From Colwellia sp. 1_MG-2023 (lineage in GTDB: Bacteria > Pseudomonadota > Gammaproteobacteria > Enterobacterales > Alteromonadaceae), in the NCBI RefSeq assembly GCF_030546755.1, contig NZ_JAUOPE010000014.1, positions 1 to 64,000 on the forward strand: 64,000 nucleotides of DNA, read 5' to 3'. This document shows positions 17,527 to 57,217 of the stretch, piece after piece (within the stretch, counting starts at the first letter, position 1; each line of letters opens with the position of its first letter). The notes beneath the pieces were generated by a model. That model did no database searches. It had not been told where the DNA came from and was given only the letters and a program-made list of their open reading frames with translations. A program made the position numbers and the translations under genes.

Positions 17527-19002
17527 TTAACGATTGGAAAGTAACTCAAAAGCAGCTTCTAGCATTAAATCCATTTGAGCTATTCGTTCTGATTGGACAA
17601 AAGCAGGGAGCTCTATATCAACACTTATTCCTTGCCCCTCTAGCCAAGTACCCTCGGATGTTAAATAGTATTCATTTGATAGACCAAACTTTAGACCTGA
17701 TGGAAGCCTTTTTTCTAACACATCTGAAAATTCACCTTGGGTTGTTTCCCCCATCAAAGTGACATGCGGTAAATTTTTCATTGTCATAGTGAATACTTCA
17801 GCAGCACTTAACGTGCTGGCACTAGTCAATAAAACAATAGGGTTTACGTATTGAAAGTCGCCTCGCGGTGATATATGCACTTCTTGTAATGGTGTTCTTG
17901 CACTTCCTAAACGCGCTTGCTTTTGATAAGCGAATATTTCCTGATCTGTAAACCTGCTTGCAATCGCCAATGAAATAAAATCATGACCGCCAAAGTTGCG
18001 GCGAATATCAATAATTAACCCATTAGTGTATTGCAAATCATTTAGTGCCTCCTCAAGTGACGCTTCTAATACTGATAATTCCTGTTCATCATCATCTCCA
18101 TTTGTAAACCCTGCCATGCCAGCTATTTGCAAATAACCAATGCCATCAAGTTGAAACCACATTAAATTTTCATTGCCACTAATAGTAATGTCTGATTCAT
18201 TACGAGCATAGTTTACAATAATTTGATTTATCAGATCATTTTGTTCAATTATATAGTCAATCGCAGCCTGCTCTTGAGTTGAGTTTGTTATTTTATCAAT
18301 TTCATTAAGCTCAAGAAATTCATTTAGAAATAAACTAGTATAATAAGGTTTGTTGGGATAGCTGATCTCTAATTCATCTCCTAAACCAGTATGACCATCC
18401 TTTAATGGTTTAATCATCTCAACTAAGGCTTGGATTAACGTTATCTCAGTAGGCTCTTGTGCTAATAATTGTTGAGCCGAAATATACATATCTTCCCAAT
18501 CTAGTTGCTGTAACTCAATTGAAACAGATAGCTCTTTAAATGTTTGATAAAAATAAGAAAGATCTCGCTCATAGTTTTCACTATAATCGTTATTTCCCAC
18601 CTGTGGCATAAACCCTTGTTCACAAGCTATTGGCACTGACAGCTCTTTGTTGTATATCATTCCAGGAGCGTAAATACCATTAGCACCGTATCCAAGCTTT
18701 TGCTCTAGTTCTGAATCGTTATTTTGCAGTGCTAAAGCTGCAGCTATCTCAACTTCCTCTAATTCATTTAGTACTTGATCAATGAAACAATAGTCATTTG
18801 TATAATCAAATAAAGTAATTTGGCTATCCTTTATTATTAAACCTTTGCCATAGGCAGGTGATATCCAAGTTCCTTGATACTTTTCTAGAATCGAATCACC
18901 TTGTATAGGAGCTCCTTGAGCATCTGAAGAACGAGACGAACCACCACAAGCGCTAAGAATTAGAGACAATGTCCCAATAACTAAATAATTTCTAATTTTC
19001 AC
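17527..19002 (-). CDS. S41-family peptidase lipoprotein
   Basis: 491 aa predicted lipoprotein: lipobox ILSAC at C19 followed by GGSS. The S41 (tail-specific protease) fold is seen from GLIIDIRRNFGGHD (about 325-338), and the catalytic serine probably lies in TSASTLSAAEVF (about 385). A later GETTQGEF segment matches the end of the domain. A long N-terminal region (about 30-200) precedes it. It may degrade or sense damaged periplasmic or surface peptides. It is followed on the same strand, 41 bases upstream, by the DUF2846-like lipoprotein, with which it may be co-transcribed. Confidence 0.85.
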   Translation of the reverse strand: MKIRNYLVIGTLSLILSACGGSSRSSDAQGAPIQGDSILEKYQGTWISPAYGKGLIIKDSQITLFDYTNDYCFIDQVLNELEEVEIAAALALQNNDSELEQKLGYGANGIYAPGMIYNKELSVPIACEQGFMPQVGNNDYSENYERDLSYFYQTFKELSVSIELQQLDWEDMYISAQQLLAQEPTEITLIQALVEMIKPLKDGHTGLGDELEISYPNKPYYTSLFLNEFLELNEIDKITNSTQEQAAIDYIIEQNDLINQIIVNYARNESDITISGNENLMWFQLDGIGYLQIAGMAGFTNGDDDEQELSVLEASLEEALNDLQYTNGLIIDIRRNFGGHDFISLAIASRFTDQEIFAYQKQARLGSARTPLQEVHISPRGDFQYVNPIVLLTSASTLSAAEVFTMTMKNLPHVTLMGETTQGEFSDVLEKRLPSGLKFGLSNEYYLTSEGTWLEGQGISVDIELPAFVQSERIAQMDLMLEAAFELLSNR

Positions 19003-42474: not shown

Positions 42475-42491
42475 TACTAGCGTTATTTTAC

Positions 42492-42605
42492 TTATTTGTA
42501 CAAGTGTTCTGAAAATTGCAATAGAAAGCTAGTTATTTGCTTAATAAATTCAGGACGCTTTTCATAAGCAATTTTGCTAATACTCAGTTGGTCAATAAGC
42601 ATCAT
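42492..42605 (-). CDS. Possible small ORF or gene remnant
   Basis: 37 codons from the ATG at 42605, hydrophilic and helical (MLIDQLSISKIAYEKRPEFI..., then a hydrophobic helix SFLLQF). Upstream the same frame stays open a few codons to a TGA. No ribosome-binding site is clear, so it could be a remnant of a larger gene lost between TetR and the 787-aa gene. Confidence 0.25.
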   Translation of the reverse strand: MMLIDQLSISKIAYEKRPEFIKQITSFLLQFSEHLYK

Positions 42606-42717
42606 TAGCTGTCTATAGCTTCAATCGCCTAGATAGTTCATCCATCATCCATCATCTCTGCATTTTTTATATGCTCAAGAGTTAGCTTTTTTTATTACGT
42701 TACTTTAATTACTCATT

Positions 42718-45081
42718 TCAGTTTTCAGAAGGTGTGATTTCGATATATTTATTCTTCGTACTTTTTGGTTTTATGTAAATCTGCTTATCAAGGTTAAGCC
42801 TTTCGAAGTGTTTTCGTAATGCGCCTTGAAATTGACTATCAATTTTACCTAGTTCATCCCAATAGATATAATCTTGTCCTTCATTGTTGAAATAGCTAAG
42901 AAAAGTGCCATAGTGCTTTTCCAAGTGTTCAAGGGGGGTTTTTATTTCTGGCGTTTTTTTATATTTTGGAAGAGCCTCTAAACCACACCAAGCTTTATTA
43001 ATATAATCAAGAACTTTTAATCTCTTGCTAAAAGTAAGTTTAAGTGCAAATTCTCTTAATTCTTCTTCTGGTTGATATGAATATGTGCGGTTATTTTCAT
43101 AACACCATTCTTCTTTTAGTTTTTCAAACGCAAGCTTTTGAGCAAGCCCCAATTCCATAGAGTCTATGAATGCCTTAGTTATAAAGGCATATGGATTGAT
43201 CGTTGAATCAATGCCAATATTAAAAAATAGTCTTTGTTTTATTGTTGTACTTAATTTTAATAATTGTTCTTCTATTGCTTTAGTCACTGCTTTTTCAGCA
43301 TTTTCTCGGTTTGCGTAATATGGATCGCCTATTGAAGCATCAAAGAAAATAGAATTTTGAGAAGAGGTAATATTAAAGCCTATGTTTGCAAATTTTAGAT
43401 TTGCGTTTATTAGGTCATCCGTTGGAGTTAACATGACTTTGAAAAATGGAAACAAGTAGCACAGTCCTTCTAGCTCATAATTTATGAGATTAGTGACTTC
43501 AAAAATTTGCTCATTACTTTGCTCTTCCTGCCTTGAGTTGAACAAGCTAAGAATTGCATTTTGTATTATGTGTTTAATTTGATCTAGATAAGCCTGCCAA
43601 TAGTTTTTTCGAAGATTAGACTTTATTTCTTTAGATAAGAATTGAGTTAGATAAAAAGCGTGATCCCAAATTCCTGAATCGAGATCTGATTCGTTTCCAT
43701 CTTCCACTTGTAAGATGTGACTCGCAGTCATTGGAACTTTTCCGGAGATAAAAATGGGGAAAGTTATTAAAGCTAAGGATGTTTTTTCTCGGTCATCGGT
43801 GCCAGGAGATAAACCTTCAAAAATGTAATGTTGTATAACTAACTGAAGTAAGCCTATTGAACATCTGTCAGAGTCATTTAATGAGTAATTTTGAAAAGGA
43901 GAAGCGTCTGAAAATGGATATCTAATGTGTATTAAACCAGTCGAAAGAACCGGATCTGCAAAGCTTCTAGCATTATTACTTGTATCTTTTAGATAAAGGT
44001 CTAGTAAGTTTTTAACTCCACCATCAGGGAAGCCATTTAATATTTCACCGGTATCAGGGTGTACCGTGTGTTTATCGCATAATATATCTAAAAATAATTT
44101 GTCATATTTTTGCGCAAATTCTTTTGTATCTTTGCTGCTTAAATCAGGGTAGCTCTTGATTTTATTTAATGGAAAAAATGAGGCTCCTTTGTTCTTAAAC
44201 CCTTGCCTAAAGTGAATTAGATAACTACGTAAATCTCGAAATTGTTCGTCACTTGCAACGATTCTAGTGTCGAAAGGATAACCTTTAAACGCTTGGTGAG
44301 TTTGGTTACCAATAGTTCTAGGCTTTGACTTAGGTCCTTTTATTTGTTTTTGGTAAAAAACAATGTTTGGTAAGTTTGATATCGATTTACTTTCGTTGAG
44401 CTTTTTAACTTTTTTAGAAAAATTTCTTACTTTTTCAGAATATGCTGACTTTAGAATGTTTTGATTTATCTTTGCTAGCTGACCTTCACTGAATGTGACA
44501 TTTGTCTCCGTGTTGTATTGGGGATAGTCACTGATTATAGAATTGAAGTGCTGTTCAATTCCTTCATGGACAGATCTGCTAAACTCATCGGAAATTCCTT
44601 TGATCTGAGTGTTGTGAAATGTGAAGTAAGTGAAAAATATATTGATTAACTCTCGGATCCTTTCTGTACTTTCTCTGAGATTACCGCCTTGAATAGGACT
44701 AACATGGATGAACTGTAGCTCTTTTGTTTTCTTCGATTGATAAATCTGAAAGACAATAAGTTCATATTCGCAAATGCTATTGGGTAAAGCGAAAATAGCA
44801 AAGGCGGTGCCTGATTTCTCAGCCAGTTTACTCGCTTCTTTATTCAATTGTTTACCGTGTTGGTCACTGTCTATATATGTTTTTATTTCTCCCTTCTTTT
44901 TGTTATGAATTGCGAATGTGAGCGGATGCTGACATAAGATCATTATCTTATTTAACAATTCGACAGGGTGAATGTTCTGATTTTCTTTCCTGAGAAAAAA
45001 TTCTTGGATAAATGAAGAAATCACAAGATCAACACGCCTTCTAAGTTCTTCATAGTTATCGTGTCCTAAAGTATTAGACAT
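42718..45081 (-). CDS. Large soluble protein of unknown function
   Basis: 787 aa, no signal peptide, no membrane helix, no P-loop or other catalytic motif that I can see. Helix-rich regions alternate with mixed ones: an N-terminal helical part (about 1-60), a possible alpha/beta sensor-like part (about 60-170, FAIFALPNSICEYELIVF), a basic stretch near 230-260 (KKVKKLNESKS), and a long helical C-terminus. It stands alone, with 130 bases to the gene at 45320 read the opposite way, and its AT-rich codon choice looks like that of accessory genes. I do not recognise it; a defence or signalling role is speculation. Confidence 0.75.
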   Translation of the reverse strand: MSNTLGHDNYEELRRRVDLVISSFIQEFFLRKENQNIHPVELLNKIMILCQHPLTFAIHNKKKGEIKTYIDSDQHGKQLNKEASKLAEKSGTAFAIFALPNSICEYELIVFQIYQSKKTKELQFIHVSPIQGGNLRESTERIRELINIFFTYFTFHNTQIKGISDEFSRSVHEGIEQHFNSIISDYPQYNTETNVTFSEGQLAKINQNILKSAYSEKVRNFSKKVKKLNESKSISNLPNIVFYQKQIKGPKSKPRTIGNQTHQAFKGYPFDTRIVASDEQFRDLRSYLIHFRQGFKNKGASFFPLNKIKSYPDLSSKDTKEFAQKYDKLFLDILCDKHTVHPDTGEILNGFPDGGVKNLLDLYLKDTSNNARSFADPVLSTGLIHIRYPFSDASPFQNYSLNDSDRCSIGLLQLVIQHYIFEGLSPGTDDREKTSLALITFPIFISGKVPMTASHILQVEDGNESDLDSGIWDHAFYLTQFLSKEIKSNLRKNYWQAYLDQIKHIIQNAILSLFNSRQEEQSNEQIFEVTNLINYELEGLCYLFPFFKVMLTPTDDLINANLKFANIGFNITSSQNSIFFDASIGDPYYANRENAEKAVTKAIEEQLLKLSTTIKQRLFFNIGIDSTINPYAFITKAFIDSMELGLAQKLAFEKLKEEWCYENNRTYSYQPEEELREFALKLTFSKRLKVLDYINKAWCGLEALPKYKKTPEIKTPLEHLEKHYGTFLSYFNNEGQDYIYWDELGKIDSQFQGALRKHFERLNLDKQIYIKPKSTKNKYIEITPSEN

Positions 45082-45319
45082 AAAGCACCTTTAAGTAATT
45101 GAATTAAATCGATTTATATTTATCTTTGTTGTATTTCTCTTAAGTTTTATTTCTGTCCATAAAAATTAAATTTATTGATGTTATTTATAATTTTTCTAGT
45201 ACTTATCTATATTGTCTTTATTTTATAGGACATGTCAAAAAAAGGTGGAAATAGTTTTCTGGTTACCTTTTACTGAAGATAACAGCGATGTTGCTGTGAA
45301 CCAAAAGAAGGTATTTACT

Positions 45320-45709
45320 ATGAAAATTATACAAGGCGTGCTTTTAGCTGTTTTGACTGCTCATGGTGCAGTTGCCTCAGAGATAAAAGGTAATACTAAA
45401 CTTGAAACAAATATCGATGGTAATTTTATTACTTCCAATATTGGCACAGGATTAAAGTCTACCAATACAATATCTACTATTTCTGACAGTAAAATCAAAG
45501 GAAATACTACCTTAAATACAAATATTGATGGCAATTATGTCCATTCAAATATTGGAACAGGCATAAAAAGTGATGTCACTTTAGCGTCAATTAAGGATAG
45601 CAACATCAAAGGAAATACAAAGGCTACAGTCAATATAGATGGTAATTTAGTTGTTTCTAATATTGGCACTGGCATTAGCTCTAAGGTACATATTTCTACC
45701 ATAGATTAA
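45320..45709 (+). CDS. Small secreted repeat protein (candidate fibre subunit)
   Basis: 129 aa from the ATG at 45320 (AAGAAGG upstream), with a signal peptide (MKIIQGVLLAVLTAHGAVAS). A frame open from 45212 is not preferred. The mature part is nearly all three repeats of 37 residues with shared words KGNT, NIDGN and SNIGTG. Length, small size, high Asn/Gly/Thr/Ser and few charges resemble curlin-like or other amyloid-forming subunits, though it is not a curlin by strict pattern. Next, after a hairpin, come a small secreted Cys protein and a CsgG-like protein. Function is inferred from this set. Confidence 0.75.
   Translation: MKIIQGVLLAVLTAHGAVASEIKGNTKLETNIDGNFITSNIGTGLKSTNTISTISDSKIKGNTTLNTNIDGNYVHSNIGTGIKSDVTLASIKDSNIKGNTKATVNIDGNLVVSNIGTGISSKVHISTID
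45386..45706 (+). repeat. Three 111-bp in-gene repeats
   Basis: Copies begin at 45386, 45497 and 45608, spaced exactly 111 bp (37 codons). The third is cut short by the stop codon (99 bp). The copies differ at many third-codon positions but keep the same protein pattern, so they are under protein-level selection rather than recent DNA duplicates. Confidence 0.9.
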
Positions 45710-45718
45710 TTATAAATT

Positions 45719-45745
45719 GGCGCTTGAATCCTCAAGCGCCTTTGA
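45719..45745 (+). terminator. Hairpin between the repeat gene and the next gene
   Basis: GGCGCTTGA (45719-45727) pairs with TCAAGCGCC (45732-45740), followed by TTTGAATTTT. It lies 10 bases after the stop. The weak U-tract suggests partial termination or RNA-end protection, which would yield more of the repeat protein than of the two downstream products. Confidence 0.55.
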
Positions 45746-45760
45746 ATTTTGGAGCTTGAC

Positions 45761-46051
45761 ATGAAACATTTGATTATTTTTTCACTTGCACTCGTACTCA
45801 CTTCAGCTTCAGTAGCCATAGAGGCAAAGGAGGTAATCAAACAAAAATCTAAAATTGACGCTAAGTTAGCAAGAATCAAGGCAAAAATGAGCGTTAAATC
45901 TAAAGGTATTCGAAAAAATAAGGAACTAATTGGGAAGAGATCTAAGGATGGAACTTGCAATGTGAATGTTGGTAGCCAAGAAAATAATGGTATTGCTGTT
46001 AACACTCAAATAAATATGGTCGCAAGAGATGTCATCGTAATTTGTGAATAA
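45761..46051 (+). CDS. Small secreted protein with a C-terminal Cys domain (HfaA-like?)
   Basis: 96 aa from the ATG at 45761, chosen for the GGAG before it and the signal peptide (about 1-21). A basic, charged stretch (about 22-65) leads to a C-terminal domain DGTCNVNVGSQENN, then VARDVIVIC, with two cysteines that could pair. The layout resembles holdfast-anchor HfaA-type proteins, but this is by pattern only. It lies between the repeat gene and the CsgG-like gene (14 bases before the latter). Confidence 0.6.
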   Translation: MKHLIIFSLALVLTSASVAIEAKEVIKQKSKIDAKLARIKAKMSVKSKGIRKNKELIGKRSKDGTCNVNVGSQENNGIAVNTQINMVARDVIVICE

Positions 46052-46065
46052 GAACGGGGTGGTTT

Positions 46066-47172
46066 ATGAATGTTAGTCAGTTTGCTGTTTTATTGTGTTT
46101 GTTCTTAGTGTTTTGTCCTGTTTCTGGTTTTACAAATGAAAGGAGCTTTAATAACTATATTCCTAAATCACATGTGTATTTAATTAATTCCATTAATAAA
46201 CAAGTAGCATGTGCTAATGAAGCATTAAAGAGTGCAAACATTACTCAAACTAAAAACATAGCCGTTGGGCTATTACAAAATAGTTCTAACAACGACAATG
46301 TTCCAAATGGATTAACAGGTATATTTACATCAGCATTATTTGAGATAACTCAAGAAAGTAAAGTACAGGTTGTCAATATGGGCTTTTTCTTGCCGAATCA
46401 CTTAACTTACACAACGCAAGCAGCACAGAAAAGCAATTGGGATAACATTGTAATAGGTCAGACTTCAGGGTTTGATAAAGGGATTGCCGGTAAAGGCCGA
46501 ACTGGGGGCTTATTTAGTAAATATTTTGGGTTAGGTATTGCGGATTTATCAAACCAAAGCTTATTACAAATGGATTTTCTGTTATTAGACAAGCAAGGTA
46601 TAGTTGTTGCTTCAGCTTCAATGGCAACCATTCTTGAATACCTCGATAACAGTACAGATAGTGAAATTACTGATGAAAATAGTGGTTTTTATTTTTCTTG
46701 GTCAGATGATGTAGGTGAGAGTATAACGTTAGCCCAAAGAATAATTAGTAGTCAAGCAGCGCTTATTTTTTTAGAGAAAATTACGGAGTTGAATTTAAAA
46801 TGTGAGACTAAACATGTGTTCCCTAATTCGAGAAAGCACAATCTATACGAAAATGCTGCAATTGAAACCATTGAGGTATCTTATGATCAAGCATTTTTCC
46901 CTAAAAAGAGTAAACGATTCTATTTTCCAAGAAGCTATCGCTCGTCTTTAGTTTGTAGCAAAAAAGTAGGTTACAACTGTAGTTTCAAATTTAAGCGAAA
47001 ATTAAATAAAGAAATTTTAGTTTATGTTGAGGACGCTTTTATCAACGCCTTTCATGATGACGCTAGGGTAGATGTTTCATGTAAAGCATATAAGGGAGAA
47101 CTGAGTTGTTTTGCTACAGGCCAACTTACTTCGTTTAGTGAGCGAAAGTTTAAGAAAAACTTATATGGCTAA
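46066..47172 (+). CDS. CsgG-like secretion protein, non-lipidated
   Basis: 368 aa with a signal peptide (about 1-22) but no lipobox (the residue before the cysteine is F). The region about 40-245 follows the CsgG/HfaB plan: an IAVGLLQNSS strand, a helix with IFTSALFEI, an IGQTSGFD strand, a GG-rich turn, a LLQMDFLLLD strand, VVASASM, and a QRIISSQAALIFLEKI helix. CsgG forms the outer-membrane channel for curli export. A basic, cysteine-bearing C-terminal extension (about 250-368) is not typical. Absence of a lipid anchor is odd, so a diverged role is possible. It closes the three-gene unit. Confidence 0.55.
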   Translation: MNVSQFAVLLCLFLVFCPVSGFTNERSFNNYIPKSHVYLINSINKQVACANEALKSANITQTKNIAVGLLQNSSNNDNVPNGLTGIFTSALFEITQESKVQVVNMGFFLPNHLTYTTQAAQKSNWDNIVIGQTSGFDKGIAGKGRTGGLFSKYFGLGIADLSNQSLLQMDFLLLDKQGIVVASASMATILEYLDNSTDSEITDENSGFYFSWSDDVGESITLAQRIISSQAALIFLEKITELNLKCETKHVFPNSRKHNLYENAAIETIEVSYDQAFFPKKSKRFYFPRSYRSSLVCSKKVGYNCSFKFKRKLNKEILVYVEDAFINAFHDDARVDVSCKAYKGELSCFATGQLTSFSERKFKKNLYG

Positions 47173-47359
47173 TTATGTGCTGCACTATATATTTACTGAT
47201 TAAGCCAGTAATCAAGGAGAACAAGTCTGAGCTAGTACAGATAGAGGTATGTACGATAACTTGTTGAGGCTTAGCTGTATATCTGTTGTTATTAATTGTT
47301 TTGCTGAGAAAAAACACATGACATAATTAAATATATGTCATGTGCTTAAATTACTTTTA

Positions 47360-48670
47360 TCAGAGTGTTTGTAGTTGAGCAAGCTTACCAATTGGCGCAT
47401 CAAGAGAATCTGGTGGAATGGTAAACCATTGCGGGCCTTTTGCTGTCATATACAAACAATCTTCAAGTCTCACGCCAAACTTCTCAGGTAGATAAATGCC
47501 TGGTTCATTAGAAAAACACATGCCTTTTGCTAATTTAGTTTGTTCGCCGTGAACAAAGTTGATCCCTTCATGGCCTTTCATGCCTATGCCATGACCTGTT
47601 CTATGTGATAAACCGGGTAATTTATAATCAGGCCCTAAACCTAAAGATTCATAATATTGTCGAACAGCATCATCAACTAAACCTGCAGATGTGCCAAGTT
47701 GGGCTGTTTCAAATGCAATGCTTTGTCCTTTTCTTACCGTTTGCCATATTTTCTTTTGTTCTGCGTTTGCCTCACCAAAAACAAAGGTTCTACTGATATC
47801 TGATTGATAACCATGAACACTACAGCCACAATCCATGAGGACAACCGAACCTTCGGTTAATGTTTGTTTTTGTTTAGTACCATGAGGGTAAGCGCTGGCT
47901 TGGTTAAATAATGCCATATTCCAAATTCCACTGCCGCCCAAGCTTGCTTGTGCAGTTTGCATTAACGCTTTAACATCCGCTTGGGTCATGCCTAGTTCAA
48001 GATGCTTCCAAACGTGAGCATAAGCGGCAAGCGTGATTTCATTCGCTTTGTGCATTAATTGCAGTTCATGATCACTTTTGATCATTCGACAACCACGAGT
48101 AATCGCATCTGCACTCACATCTTTCATGGCGGGTAATAACGACATAACACCTTGTAAAACAAAATATCTCACTGAATGCTCAAAAGCGACATTACCCGTT
48201 TTTATCTTTCTATCGGTAAGAATTTGTTTGACGCGTTCAAATGGACTTTCGTGTTCTTGCCATACTCGTACGTCGTCACCAACGGCTAAAGTTTCACGAA
48301 TACTAGGTTCTTCAAAAAATGGGCAAACAACGGCGATATCACCTACTTGTGGGATCACTAAGGCGGTAAGACGTTCGCTTCGCCACCACTGAATACCGGC
48401 AAAATAGTCCATCGTTGCCCCAGGCTCTATAACCATTGCGGAGATATTATGCTCTTTCATTAACTGTTGTGCTTTTTTGATACGCGTTAAACGCTCTTTA
48501 ACAGTAATAGGGGAAACAGAGCCCGTAATATTGGATAGCGTTTTATTTGAATTTTCACTACTAGCTTGACTGGTTGTGCTGAAAGGGGAAGCGGTTACTA
48601 CGTTTCCTATTGATAGGGTGGAAATTGCCGCTGTGCTTAGCTTGAGAAACTTTCTTTTACTTATTGTCAT
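47360..48670 (-). CDS. Secreted M24 metallopeptidase (aminopeptidase P-like)
   Basis: 436 aa. The N-terminus (SKRKFLKLSTAAIS) looks like a Tat-type signal with KR in place of RR. An N-terminal domain (about 60-190) precedes a pita-bread catalytic domain: MDCGCSVHGYQSDISRTF carries the metal-binding aspartates, the SHRTGHGIGMKGHEG segment the histidine, and FSNEPGIYLPEKFGVRLEDCL the glutamates. This is a creatinase/aminopeptidase-P or Xaa-Pro dipeptidase type enzyme. It diverges from the gamma-glutamyltransferase gene; both would break down extracellular peptides. Confidence 0.9.
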   Translation of the reverse strand: MTISKRKFLKLSTAAISTLSIGNVVTASPFSTTSQASSENSNKTLSNITGSVSPITVKERLTRIKKAQQLMKEHNISAMVIEPGATMDYFAGIQWWRSERLTALVIPQVGDIAVVCPFFEEPSIRETLAVGDDVRVWQEHESPFERVKQILTDRKIKTGNVAFEHSVRYFVLQGVMSLLPAMKDVSADAITRGCRMIKSDHELQLMHKANEITLAAYAHVWKHLELGMTQADVKALMQTAQASLGGSGIWNMALFNQASAYPHGTKQKQTLTEGSVVLMDCGCSVHGYQSDISRTFVFGEANAEQKKIWQTVRKGQSIAFETAQLGTSAGLVDDAVRQYYESLGLGPDYKLPGLSHRTGHGIGMKGHEGINFVHGEQTKLAKGMCFSNEPGIYLPEKFGVRLEDCLYMTAKGPQWFTIPPDSLDAPIGKLAQLQTL

Positions 48671-52505: not shown

Positions 52506-52515
52506 GGGAGTGAAT

Positions 52516-53700
52516 ATGTTTAAAAGTAATATGAATCAAACCAAGGTAATCCAGCCCAAGGTGGCTATGGCAGAAAAAATAACATCTATGCTGTTAATCG
52601 CGCTGATTTTCAGTGCAGTATCACCTAGTTACGCAAGTGTTGCAGGCAAAACTATTCTTGCTAAAGGAGAAGTACTCGCGATCGAAAATGGCACCGATGC
52701 TCGCGCCCTTAAACGTCGTTCAGAAATCTTTGATGTTGATGAAATTACCACAGGTAAATTAAGTAAAGCTCAGTTTAATATGACAGATGGCGGTTTACTT
52801 ACCTTGAAAGAGAACACAAAAGTGTTGATCAGCAGTTACCATTACGATGATAAAACGGAACAAGGTTCAGCAACACTCGAGTTAGTTAACGGTGGTTTGC
52901 GCTCGATCAGTGGTTTAATTAAAGCAAAAGGTGGTGACTATCAAGTAAAAACTCCGGTTGGAAGTATTGGTATTCGCGGTACACATTTTGTGGTTGAAGT
53001 GGTTGATGAAAAAGTATTTTTTGGTGTTTATAGCGGTAATATTGACGTGAATTTAACCGGGAGTGATCAAGTTTTATCGCTTGGTGAAACGGAAGATTTT
53101 GCTTTCGCATCTGTTGATTTATCCGGCCAAGTAACGACACTAACTCAAGCGCCAGTCGTTTTATCAAAAGGTTTTGTTAGCGATGAAGTAGAAGCGATTA
53201 GTGAAAATTCAGCACAAAGCGAAGAACAAGCTTCGCTCGTTGAAACAGAAGAGGTTGCCAATATTGATTTTGATGCTTCAGTGTATCAAGAGGAAACATT
53301 ACAAGCGATTAGTGATGAGTCTATTGCTGATTTAATTAGTCAACGCAGTGGCTCGGTGACTTTTGATCAAGTTATTGAAAGCTCGATAAATTCATCTGTT
53401 GGCGATACCAGTGGCTTTCAAATGAATATGACGATTGATTTTGATAATGCCTCAGTACCTGGTGGGACGTTAAGTTTTAATGATGCTCAAGGTGAATGGT
53501 TAGCGACGTTTTCTGGTTTGATTAATATTGACCAACTTTCGTTAGGGATTAATTATGCTTCACATGGCAATAACAAAGCGCATGGTAGTATTTCCGCTGC
53601 CTTTTCAAATGGACTTGAAGAAGTATTAGGGAATTTCAATTTATCTGAAATTGATGATGCTAGTGTCAACGCTGATGGCACGTTTAAGATAAAACCATAA
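52516..53700 (+). CDS. FecR-domain periplasmic protein
   Basis: 394 aa from the ATG at 52516, directly after AGGGGAG. The signal is long (hydrophobic MLLIALIFSAV near residues 27-38, SYASVAG cleavage region). A FecR domain (about 45-175) has the TPVGSIGIRGTHFVVEV segment, typical of stand-alone periplasmic FecR proteins. The C-terminal part has an acidic region (about 200-280) and a small beta-rich domain at the end. Such FecR proteins often sit beside outer-membrane exporters and CHASE2 proteins, as here, and may bind cell-surface polymers. Confidence 0.8.
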   Translation: MFKSNMNQTKVIQPKVAMAEKITSMLLIALIFSAVSPSYASVAGKTILAKGEVLAIENGTDARALKRRSEIFDVDEITTGKLSKAQFNMTDGGLLTLKENTKVLISSYHYDDKTEQGSATLELVNGGLRSISGLIKAKGGDYQVKTPVGSIGIRGTHFVVEVVDEKVFFGVYSGNIDVNLTGSDQVLSLGETEDFAFASVDLSGQVTTLTQAPVVLSKGFVSDEVEAISENSAQSEEQASLVETEEVANIDFDASVYQEETLQAISDESIADLISQRSGSVTFDQVIESSINSSVGDTSGFQMNMTIDFDNASVPGGTLSFNDAQGEWLATFSGLINIDQLSLGINYASHGNNKAHGSISAAFSNGLEEVLGNFNLSEIDDASVNADGTFKIKP

Positions 53701-53758
53701 ATATGAATATTCAATTACGATTTTATCGTTTGATTGGAGCTGAAAAAGAGGTAGCTTT

Positions 53759-56700
53759 ATGCGTACATTAAGTATCATTACCCTTACATCTTTAGTTTGT
53801 TTAGTAGGCTGTGGTGGCTCGTCTGAAACCGCGCAAGAAAATAACATTCAACCTGAAACACCGGTAACAGTAGCACCTGACGAATCACTAAATACCGTGT
53901 CATTAGCTGGTATGTCAGGACAGGACAAACCGATAAAACAACAAGTAGAAGGACGAGCGTTAACTAAAAGTGCAGTCGTAAAAACTAGCTTTGCAAATGC
54001 TCAAGGTAGCATTAGAAGTGCTTCGGGCTCGGCGTCTGTTATCGGAAACTTAACATTAGGGGTCACCGCTCAAGATCCAGACGGCATCACGCAACTTTCT
54101 TTGTATTTACCTAAAATCAATCGTTCATTTACTTTATGTACTGATACTTGTATTGAAAACTCAGAAATTACTGTAACAGGCTTAAATCCTCAACTTTCCG
54201 GTGAACAATCGGGAGAGTTGCGAGTTGAATTAATAGTCAAGGATAGTCAAAACAATGAAACGTTAGCCGATACACTGAGCGTTAATTGGCAACCTATTAT
54301 TATTCCATCGTTAAGTGCTGTTAGAGAAAATGGAAATATTTCATTAACTTGGGGACAAGCTAATTCCGCTCAACGTTATAATATTTATGTAGCGACTGAC
54401 GCAGACCTTAATCGAGAAAATGTGCTTGATTTAGCTAATGGTGTACAGTTTTTGTCACAAACGGCGACTAATATTCAAATTACTGATCAAGACGATACTA
54501 AGCCATATTATGTGATCATTACTGCGATTAATAGTGGTGGTGAAAGTGGCATGACGTCACCTTTAGTCATTCCTAGCAATGTGGTTGAAGTGAACTTACC
54601 CCCAATTGCAAGGGCAGACGTATATCAATTAAATGAAGATCAAGATTTTTCAGAAAATTTGTTAATTAACGATGAAGATCCTGAAGGAAGTGAACTAACA
54701 GCCGAAATTTCAACGCAACCAAGTAATGGTTCATTGCAATTAGCAGACTCAGGAGTGTTTACTTATACCCCTAGAGACAATTTTTTTGGTAATGATTCGT
54801 TTCGTTATATGATTATTGATGATCAAGGCCTAGAAAGTGAGGCCTTAGTTACGTTAACGATTAATCCCGTTAATGATCTTCCTGTTGCCGTTAATGATGT
54901 TTATACCTTATCAGCAAATAATAATATTTCTGTAAGTAGCCCAGGTGTTTTAAGTAACGATAGTGATATTGATGGTGACAATTTAGCCGTTGAAAGTGTG
55001 CTGATCACAGAGCCAGAGTTTGGTGGTCTTAATCTTAATGTTGATGGTAGTTTTACTTACGTCGCTCATAGCGACTTTGATCTTAATGATAGTTTTGTTT
55101 ATCAAGTATCTGATGGACAAGAAGGTACACATACCGCAACAGTCACTATTTTATCATCTGCTGAATTTGCATCGCCAGTGGCACAGAATGATAGTTACCA
55201 AACCAATGAAGATATTACACTGGTTGTTGATACCACAGCGAATGGCATATTAGGCAATGATACAGAGCCAAATGGTTTCGAGTTTGAATTAGACGAAGTA
55301 CTAATTTCAGAGCCACAACATGGACAATTAAACTTATCGTTAGATGGCACTTTTACTTATATTCCTGATAATAATTATGTGGGAATAGATCAGTTTCATT
55401 ATCAAATAACCAGCGCCACAACTAAAACAGCGCAAGCAACGGTAACTATTAATATTTTATCGCAACCTGATGCGCCGATTGCCAGTGAAGATGTTTACCA
55501 ACTTGAGGAAGACAGCGCTTTAAATATCAGCGCAGAACAAGGTTTATTAGCCAATGACTCGGATCCAGATGGTGGCGTAATTACCGTTGAGCCCATCGCA
55601 ATTCATTTGCCGAGTAACGGGGCGGTGATACTTCACCAAGATGGTAGTTTTGAATATACCCCAATAGCTAACTTTCACGGGGTGGATACTTTTACCTATC
55701 AAATTATTAACGAAAGTCAGTTAACGAGTCAGGCTCAAGTGACCTTAACAGTTAGTGCTAAAAATGACGCGCCTATCGCGGTGGATGATTTTGCTTCTAC
55801 AGAACAAGGGACATCAGTCACTATTGATGTATTAGCCAATGATTTGGATTTAGAAAATGGTCAATTGACTATTGAAAGCGCTTCTGTTGATATCGGTAGT
55901 GTTTCTATCGTCGATAAAAAGTTAGTGTTTCAACCTCAAGATGATTACTCAGGTGTTGCGAACATTACTTACACCATTGCTGATCCTGAAGGGTTAACCG
56001 CAACAGCAAATGTCTTAGTTACGGTAAATACGACGATTGTCATAAACCATGATCCTATCGCCGTGAATGATAGTTTTAATTTAAACGAAGATTCCCAATT
56101 GGATGGCTTATCAGTGTTAGCAAATGATACTGATGAAGATAATGATACCTTAACGTTACAAACAACACCCGTAAGTGAAGTGAGTCATGGATATTTGTCA
56201 TTATTTTCTGATGGTACTTTTACCTATATTCCTGAAAGTAACTTTAATGGTGAAGATAGTTTTACTTATAGTATTAGTGATGGACAAGGGGGCTTTGATC
56301 AAGCGAGTGTTAGCCTGAAAATTAATGCGATTAATGACTTGCCCGTTGCTGTTGATGACAACATCCAAGTCAATGAAAATGATAAGTTAGAAAATTTTAA
56401 TGTCTTACTAAACGATACAGATATTGATAATGACACCTTATCTCTTACTACCACACCAATTTCAGACGTTGAAAATGGCAGTTTAATTTTAAACAATAAT
56501 GGTGAGATAACCTATAAACCAACGCCTACCGTTAACGGTAAAGATAGCTTTGTTTATGAAGTTAATGATGGTCAAGGTGGCATGGCAAAAGCAAACGTTA
56601 ATATCACTATTATTTCCACTAATATTGCCCCCATCGCCAGTAATGATAGTTTCGTGATTGATGAGAATAAGATCCTTAAAGGCGAGTCAGTTTTAGAAAA

Positions 56701-57217
56701 TGACAAAGATGAAGATGGAGATATATTAACCGTTATAACTACGCCTATAACCGATGTTTCAAGTGGTAGCTTAGACTTAAGTACTGACGGTACATTTGTT
56801 TATACTCCGAAGTTGAACTTTGACGGTACAGATCGCTTCACGTATCAAATTCAAGATCCTGAAGGCGCAACTTCACAAGCAACAGTGTCAATCAGTGTAC
56901 TAAACAGCATTGAACCTCCTGTGGCTATTGATGATAGCTATACCGTCGTGAGCCTTTTAGGTACTGGCAGTTCTTCAGGTAATGTATTAGAAAATGATTT
57001 TGTTCCTGAAAATGGTTATTTGGTTGTCAATGAAACGCCAGTAACCAATGTAAAATATGGCGAACTTACCAAACTTGATAAAAGTGGTTACTTTGAATAC
57101 AAGCCTAATTTCGGGTTTTTAGGCACAGATAGTTTTGTTTATGAGGTTTATGATAGTAATAACCCAAGTGCTGGTACATCAACGGCAACAGTAACTTTTG
57201 TTGTTGTATCCTTGTAA
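53759..57217 (+). CDS. Giant tandem-95 repeat lipoprotein
   Basis: 1152 aa lipoprotein: lipobox LVGC at C18, then GGSS. After a linker come a beta-domain with one cysteine pair (about 90-175), a fibronectin-III-like domain (about 180-285) and nine tandem-95/cadherin-like repeats starting at words such as ARADVYQL, AVNDVYTL, AQNDSYQT, ASEDVYQL, AVDDFAST, AVNDSFNL, AVDDNIQV, ASNDSFVI and AIDDSYTV. Each repeat has the NDxDxDGD calcium-type and FTYxP motifs (the fifth and ninth deviate). This is the usual build of a long calcium-bound adhesin. A lipid-anchored form next to a Slam-like gene suggests surface display. Confidence 0.85.
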   Translation: MRTLSIITLTSLVCLVGCGGSSETAQENNIQPETPVTVAPDESLNTVSLAGMSGQDKPIKQQVEGRALTKSAVVKTSFANAQGSIRSASGSASVIGNLTLGVTAQDPDGITQLSLYLPKINRSFTLCTDTCIENSEITVTGLNPQLSGEQSGELRVELIVKDSQNNETLADTLSVNWQPIIIPSLSAVRENGNISLTWGQANSAQRYNIYVATDADLNRENVLDLANGVQFLSQTATNIQITDQDDTKPYYVIITAINSGGESGMTSPLVIPSNVVEVNLPPIARADVYQLNEDQDFSENLLINDEDPEGSELTAEISTQPSNGSLQLADSGVFTYTPRDNFFGNDSFRYMIIDDQGLESEALVTLTINPVNDLPVAVNDVYTLSANNNISVSSPGVLSNDSDIDGDNLAVESVLITEPEFGGLNLNVDGSFTYVAHSDFDLNDSFVYQVSDGQEGTHTATVTILSSAEFASPVAQNDSYQTNEDITLVVDTTANGILGNDTEPNGFEFELDEVLISEPQHGQLNLSLDGTFTYIPDNNYVGIDQFHYQITSATTKTAQATVTINILSQPDAPIASEDVYQLEEDSALNISAEQGLLANDSDPDGGVITVEPIAIHLPSNGAVILHQDGSFEYTPIANFHGVDTFTYQIINESQLTSQAQVTLTVSAKNDAPIAVDDFASTEQGTSVTIDVLANDLDLENGQLTIESASVDIGSVSIVDKKLVFQPQDDYSGVANITYTIADPEGLTATANVLVTVNTTIVINHDPIAVNDSFNLNEDSQLDGLSVLANDTDEDNDTLTLQTTPVSEVSHGYLSLFSDGTFTYIPESNFNGEDSFTYSISDGQGGFDQASVSLKINAINDLPVAVDDNIQVNENDKLENFNVLLNDTDIDNDTLSLTTTPISDVENGSLILNNNGEITYKPTPTVNGKDSFVYEVNDGQGGMAKANVNITIISTNIAPIASNDSFVIDENKILKGESVLENDKDEDGDILTVITTPITDVSSGSLDLSTDGTFVYTPKLNFDGTDRFTYQIQDPEGATSQATVSISVLNSIEPPVAIDDSYTVVSLLGTGSSSGNVLENDFVPENGYLVVNETPVTNVKYGELTKLDKSGYFEYKPNFGFLGTDSFVYEVYDSNNPSAGTSTATVTFVVVSL

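Follow-up and report, generated by a model that had tools for sequence, protein, structure and literature searches.

On balance, a three-gene unit in Colwellia sp. 1_MG-2023 is best explained as a compact, rare export system of the CsgG type that would serve its own class of solenoid subunit, and its product is a candidate surface fibre. The unit lies at positions 45320–47172 of the 64,000-nucleotide stretch of DNA that was analysed, here called the window. The first-pass annotation had proposed a minimal curli- or holdfast-like fibre system at this place. Its observation as a whole was confirmed and its interpretation as a whole was partly supported.

The unit, its relatives and its genomic setting

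The list of open reading frames places three genes on the forward strand, forming one unit as described earlier. The first (45320..45709, +) encodes a secreted repeat protein of 129 aa with signal-peptide-like residues ~1–19, three 37-residue repeats and a single Gln overall. The second (45761..46051, +) encodes a small secreted two-Cys protein of 96 aa, whose family matches in Pfam and NCBIfam were at chance level only. The third (46066..47172, +) encodes a putative CsgG-superfamily protein of 368 aa, which has a signal-peptide-like segment, no lipobox and no match in Pfam or NCBIfam. A hydropathy scan revealed an N-terminal hydrophobic segment of the signal-peptide type in all three products.

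The hairpin that the first-pass annotation had reported after the repeat gene is present between that gene and the small gene (45719..45740, +). It is G+C-rich (9 bp with 6 G-C pairs) and appeared terminator-like in a scan that found three such sites in the region, compared to a mean of 1.0 (sd 1.1) in shuffles. A 9-bp hairpin occupies the equivalent position in Pseudoalteromonas caenipelagi (L007) and in L003 and is missing from the distant L034, and is kept in three of the four loci folded (z-scores of the folded stretch −2.2 for the window, −2.7 for L007, −3.6 for L003 and +0.5 for L034). No run of U comes after the L007 hairpin, and a terminator role is therefore not established. A hairpin after the first gene would hold the subunit mRNA in excess.

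A search of 295 family genomes with the 368-aa protein gave six matches. Three were full-length (the window genome, P. caenipelagi (G018) and G029), all with the same three-gene order. The match in G238 was limited to the last ~105 residues, and a reverse search from G238 returned 4 of the 295 genomes, namely G238 and the same three. The G238 locus (L034) encodes a secreted protein of 198 aa, a small protein of 123 aa and a CsgG-like protein of 384 aa, in that order, and its secreted and small proteins had no clear sequence likeness to their window counterparts. The gene order is kept in four loci, of which three are close. The matches in G138 and G189 lay in ORFs that were unrelated by reading. 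A profile search at the level of the order returned 2 of 394. With a profile of the repeats, 3 of 246 family genomes gave strong matches (E 1e-36 or better), all of them next to a CsgG-like gene, and four others of the 246 gave weak ones (E 0.001–0.009); three of the weak loci were judged unrelated by reading and the fourth, L085, is a 47-codon frame with a stop. A plasmid or phage origin was rejected, as neither plasmids nor phages gave a match and viral contigs yielded no confirmed relative. Since few genomes matched and no plasmid, phage or viral contig held a confirmed relative, the unit is rare among the sequences searched.

The DNA alignment between the window and the congener G034 runs as far as 42480 and resumes at 47385 (window positions). 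Inside this interval (42481..47384; counterpart region L078 in G034) the content differs, G034 having a response regulator and a histidine kinase (named by reading) instead of the unit and a 787-aa gene. On the basis of this single congener, the collinear flanks with other content between them indicate that the unit occupies an exchangeable slot. The slot is flanked by an aminopeptidase-like gene and a TetR-like gene. The 787-aa gene (42718..45081, −) is divergent to the unit. Two of 196 family genomes contain it, the window's own and P. caenipelagi, and in the latter it has the same place (L007 1655–4027) and 62% identity. No family could be assigned to its product, for which nothing above chance was returned by Pfam, NCBIfam, PADLOC or PHROGs. 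Genes other than the 787-aa gene lie upstream of the unit in G029, and in G238 a STAND/TPR protein of 968 aa (L034 3944–6850), divergent to the unit, is encoded in the corresponding position.

This setting raises the alternative that the unit and the 787-aa gene are cargo of an exchangeable conflict island, engaged in defence or antagonism, with the repeat protein as effector. The exchangeability of the slot, the recurrence of the 787-aa neighbour in P. caenipelagi and the STAND/TPR protein of G238 are consistent with it. However, PADLOC matched none of four window proteins and gave weak matches for G238 proteins only, the repeat protein had just two weak PHROG matches (E ~0.02), and the genes upstream of the unit are different in G029. 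We consider this alternative highly improbable.

The host genome had no PF03783 match at E ≤ 1e-5, and no CsgF (PF10614) or curlin-repeat (PF07012) match at E ≤ 0.001. In the congener G076 and in genome G006, a large Asn-rich repeat protein (800 and 712 aa), a CsgG-family protein and a small protein bearing the CsgF-like sequence FNNPTFGGNP are encoded in a row (L042 4238–7892 and L043 764–4144, one locus being in the window's genus); here the likeness of the repeats and that of FNNPTFGGNP to CsgF were judged by reading. Elsewhere in the window, reading identified a secreted protein of FecR type and, after it, a cadherin/Ig-like repeat lipoprotein of 1152 aa (52510–57217), possibly a surface system. 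An S41-peptidase-like lipoprotein (17527–19002) resembles, also by reading, one near the G238 unit (L034 11095–12594), which is probably coincidence.

The repeat protein

The window repeat protein has 63% self-identity at an offset of 37 residues, a value equalled by none of 2000 shuffles, in agreement with the secreted protein of three 37-residue repeats first noted. The P. caenipelagi protein has 62% at the same offset (0/2000 shuffles as good), while only two repeats, also 37 residues long, occur in the G029 protein, with 38% self-identity (0/2000). The secreted protein of G238 has no significant period, its best offset of 34 being matched by 87 of 2000 shuffles. By composition, Thr, Asn, Ser and Gly are abundant in the repeats.

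Structure prediction of the repeats, which the first-pass annotation had proposed as a check, yielded a β-solenoid. The AlphaFold2 model, built from a two-row alignment, has a pLDDT of 94.1 and a pTM of 0.79 and contains nine strands, three per repeat, with 2–3 residues between the strands within a repeat. The predicted solenoid fold of the repeat protein is well supported. A Foldseek search of the model against the PDB gave a sole match at E ≤ 0.001, the FapC amyloid 9u4u (E 3.9e-4, prob 0.94). The global superposition of the two was poor (TM 0.23, rmsd 17.6), and because of these scores we take the FapC match to suggest a local solenoid pattern in common, not common ancestry. VIA-align of the model gave a Z of 3.9 for the CsgA fibril and 2.7 for FapC.

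Several ice-binding β-solenoids were among the weaker Foldseek matches (E 0.15 or worse), and two were listed by VIA. They bear on a second reading, in which the repeat protein is exported by a CsgG-like pore and acts as a short, non-polymerising surface solenoid, as an adhesin cap or with an ice-binding-like face, and forms no amyloid fibre. The Thr/Asn/Ser/Gly-rich repeats with corners of 2–3 residues between the strands of a repeat would suit such a protein, as would its length of only three turns (two in G029). Against this, the ice-binding matches have E values of at least 0.15 compared to 3.9e-4 for FapC, and a CsgG-family partner together with a hairpin favouring subunit excess fits a polymer. 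A non-polymerising surface solenoid is rather unlikely in our estimate, and a fibre subunit is the preferred reading.

The repeats had been described as unlike those of known curlins, and on this point the motif scan, a profile test and the AlphaFold2 solenoid model agree. No QX10Q or QXGX2N curlin motif was found in the window, P. caenipelagi and G029 proteins; the G238 secreted protein holds one QX10Q. A curlin origin was rejected in the profile comparison with eight E. coli curlin repeats, in which 14 of 100 shuffles were as good. A Fap origin was also rejected. Three FapC repeats had given a weak hint (P 0.019, 3/150 shuffles) in a test in which both G029 repeats were two residues off register; this was gone with 28 FapB/C repeats from six genomes, with the register right, where 131 of 200 shuffles scored as well. 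The G029 repeats alone against the same 28 gave a score reached by 40 of 200 shuffles. Solved structures sought by sequence gave nothing or chance-level matches. By sequence, the subunit fits neither curlin nor FapB/C.

The CsgG-like protein and its small partner

Family searches with PF03783 matched neither the 368-aa protein nor its homologues in L034, L003 and L007. We compared a 3-row alignment of the family to 25 proteins of the CsgG superfamily (E. coli CsgG and 24 others retrieved with PF03783, L045 being left out) using hhalign. The score was 48.2 (prob 84, P 7.1e-6, 118 columns), which none of 300 column shuffles reached (maximum 23.4), and six unrelated decoy alignments scored at most 16.3. 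The aligned region, residues 59–187 (46240..46626, +), includes GGLFSKYFGLG. A 26-protein panel including L045 gave a P of 1.5e-7; we prefer the 25-protein panel because L045 was found with the unit's own profile. L045 is a PF03783 protein (Pfam E 3.8e-31) and was the sole out-of-family match of the family profile in 303 genomes of the class, at an E of 9.4e-4 that applies per genome, with ~0.3 such chance matches expected over the 303. Adding the divergent G238 protein to the alignment lowered the score to 41.2 (P 9.2e-5, prob 59). As a single sequence, the 368-aa protein scored 35.2 on the 26-protein panel, and one unrelated window ORF of 36 scored exceeded this with 37.3 over 20 columns.

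Against 11 CsgG proteins, hhalign picked one stretch (P 0.0012, prob 20), in which GGLFSKYFGLG of the 368-aa protein is aligned with GGFGAEYFGIG of L008, a CsgG protein. The YFGIG motif of true CsgG is the stretch adjoining the membrane hairpin. The alignment with 12 true CsgG alone was weak (P 0.001), and the other PF03783 proteins (L019–L031, L045) outscored true CsgG as a match for the 368-aa protein. Together, the profile–profile comparison and the profile match to a PF03783 protein bear out the distant kinship to CsgG put forward in the first-pass annotation, and membership of the 368-aa protein in the CsgG superfamily, as a remote member, is well supported at the level of sequence profiles.

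The lack of a lipid anchor was likewise upheld, with a lipobox-like site in none of four family members compared to 11 of 12 CsgG. Such a site is present in 12 of the 14 other CsgG-superfamily proteins of the panel (L019–L031, L045), from which the 368-aa protein also differs in that its partner is a repeat protein and its C-terminus is Cys-rich. This C-terminal extension (residues 282–368; 46909..47169, +) exceeds the length of E. coli CsgG and carries Cys 297, 305, 339 and 348. It is net-positive, consistent with the basic, Cys-bearing tail first described, and three of its Cys columns are invariant across four sequences. Comparison of the Cys-rich C-terminus with CsgF and CsgE gave no signal (16/60 and 24/60 shuffles as good, respectively). 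In E. coli CsgG the constriction loop contains Tyr66, Asn70 and Phe71, according to an excerpt of PMC7304575. The corresponding region seems several residues shorter in the 368-aa protein, in a part where the alignment is uncertain, and this is a lead only.

The AlphaFold2 model of the 368-aa protein was poor (pLDDT 43) and unusable for fold assignment, and the pore can therefore only be inferred. The protein might instead be a periplasmic member of the CsgG superfamily that forms no pore, the three proteins together making an envelope complex. The absent lipid anchor, the poor model, the better alignment with the wider superfamily panel than with true CsgG, and the position of the panel protein L045 between genes that by reading are unlike a fibre operon all point in this direction. 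On the other hand, the stretch aligned with true CsgG is the YFGIG motif beside the membrane hairpin, and none of the strong matches to the repeat protein in the 246 family genomes lacked a CsgG-like gene. We regard an envelope complex without a pore as quite improbable and favour an export channel.

The product of the second gene is small, secreted and Cys-bearing as had been noted, and its C66 and C95 are kept in all three aligned homologues. The HfaA-like shape that was also ascribed to it gained no support, since neither HfaA nor HfaD appeared by name in the NCBIfam scan. Kinship to CsgF was rejected (against three CsgF, 10/100 shuffles as good), and comparison with the single sequence of E. 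coli CsgE was equalled by 7 of 60 shuffles.

Proposed mechanism and comparison with known systems

The following account of export, of fibre formation and of what the small protein and the C-terminal domain might do is what we infer from these data. Judging from their N-termini, all three proteins would enter the periplasm by Sec. The 368-aa protein, whose homology to CsgG is supported, would oligomerise in the outer membrane and form a pore via CsgG-like hairpins. The repeat protein would cross unfolded and fold outside into the confidently predicted three-turn β-solenoid, and end-to-end stacking of the solenoids may then produce a surface fibre. From its position in the unit, the small protein, presumably disulfide-bonded, might nucleate the fibre, anchor it or serve the pore, like CsgF and CsgB in curli. 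More speculatively, the Cys-rich domain at the C-terminus may take the place of CsgE in gating the periplasmic side.

Like curli (CsgA/B with CsgEFG), the unit combines a CsgG-superfamily protein with a secreted repeat protein of predicted β-solenoid fold and includes a small secreted accessory gene. It differs in its 37-residue, three-strand repeats, which lack QX10Q and QXGX2N in the three close proteins, and in an exporter that lacks a lipobox and has an additional Cys-rich C-terminus; CsgE, CsgF, CsgC and CsgH were not named among the four proteins scanned with Pfam and NCBIfam. With Fap (FapA–F, subunit FapC), its top Foldseek match, the unit shares three Asn-rich repeats of ~37–39 residues. 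In contrast to the five short strands of a FapC layer, as given in an excerpt of PMC12392863, the predicted layer here has three. The repeat protein also has no long linkers and no FapB/C profile match, and the unit has a CsgG-like third gene, with no FapF noticed by reading among the window ORFs. The Caulobacter holdfast anchor HfaABD similarly pairs a CsgG-like protein with secreted partners (PMC6707917, in excerpt), whereas here neither HfaA nor HfaD was named by NCBIfam and no holdfast genes were noticed by reading in the window.

A bolder formulation is that the unit represents a third exported-amyloid architecture, swappable between genomes, in which a linker-free solenoid of three turns with three strands per turn is served by a self-contained CsgG-superfamily channel whose disulfide-bonded C-terminal domain replaces CsgE and the lipid anchor. 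We put this forward as tentative and open to doubt.

In published surveys, as their excerpts describe them, curli are recognised from curlin repeats in the vicinity of csg genes, and Fap from repeats of the FapBC type (PMC3521004, PMC10192328, PMC12822426). In the literature on CsgG-like proteins, holdfast and new amyloid families, the titles and abstract openings of the matches listed mention no such unit, preprints and most subscription journals lying outside this scope. On the surveys' terms as excerpted, a unit whose repeats are of another kind and whose CsgG relative is missed by Pfam would escape them (PMC12822426, PMC3521004, PMC10192328). If fibres do form, CsgG-type export would not be bound to curlin sequences, and three short genes would suffice for a whole system. 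Such a system could then help to define the minimal requirements of a CsgG channel, and could possibly be used for the display of solenoid materials.
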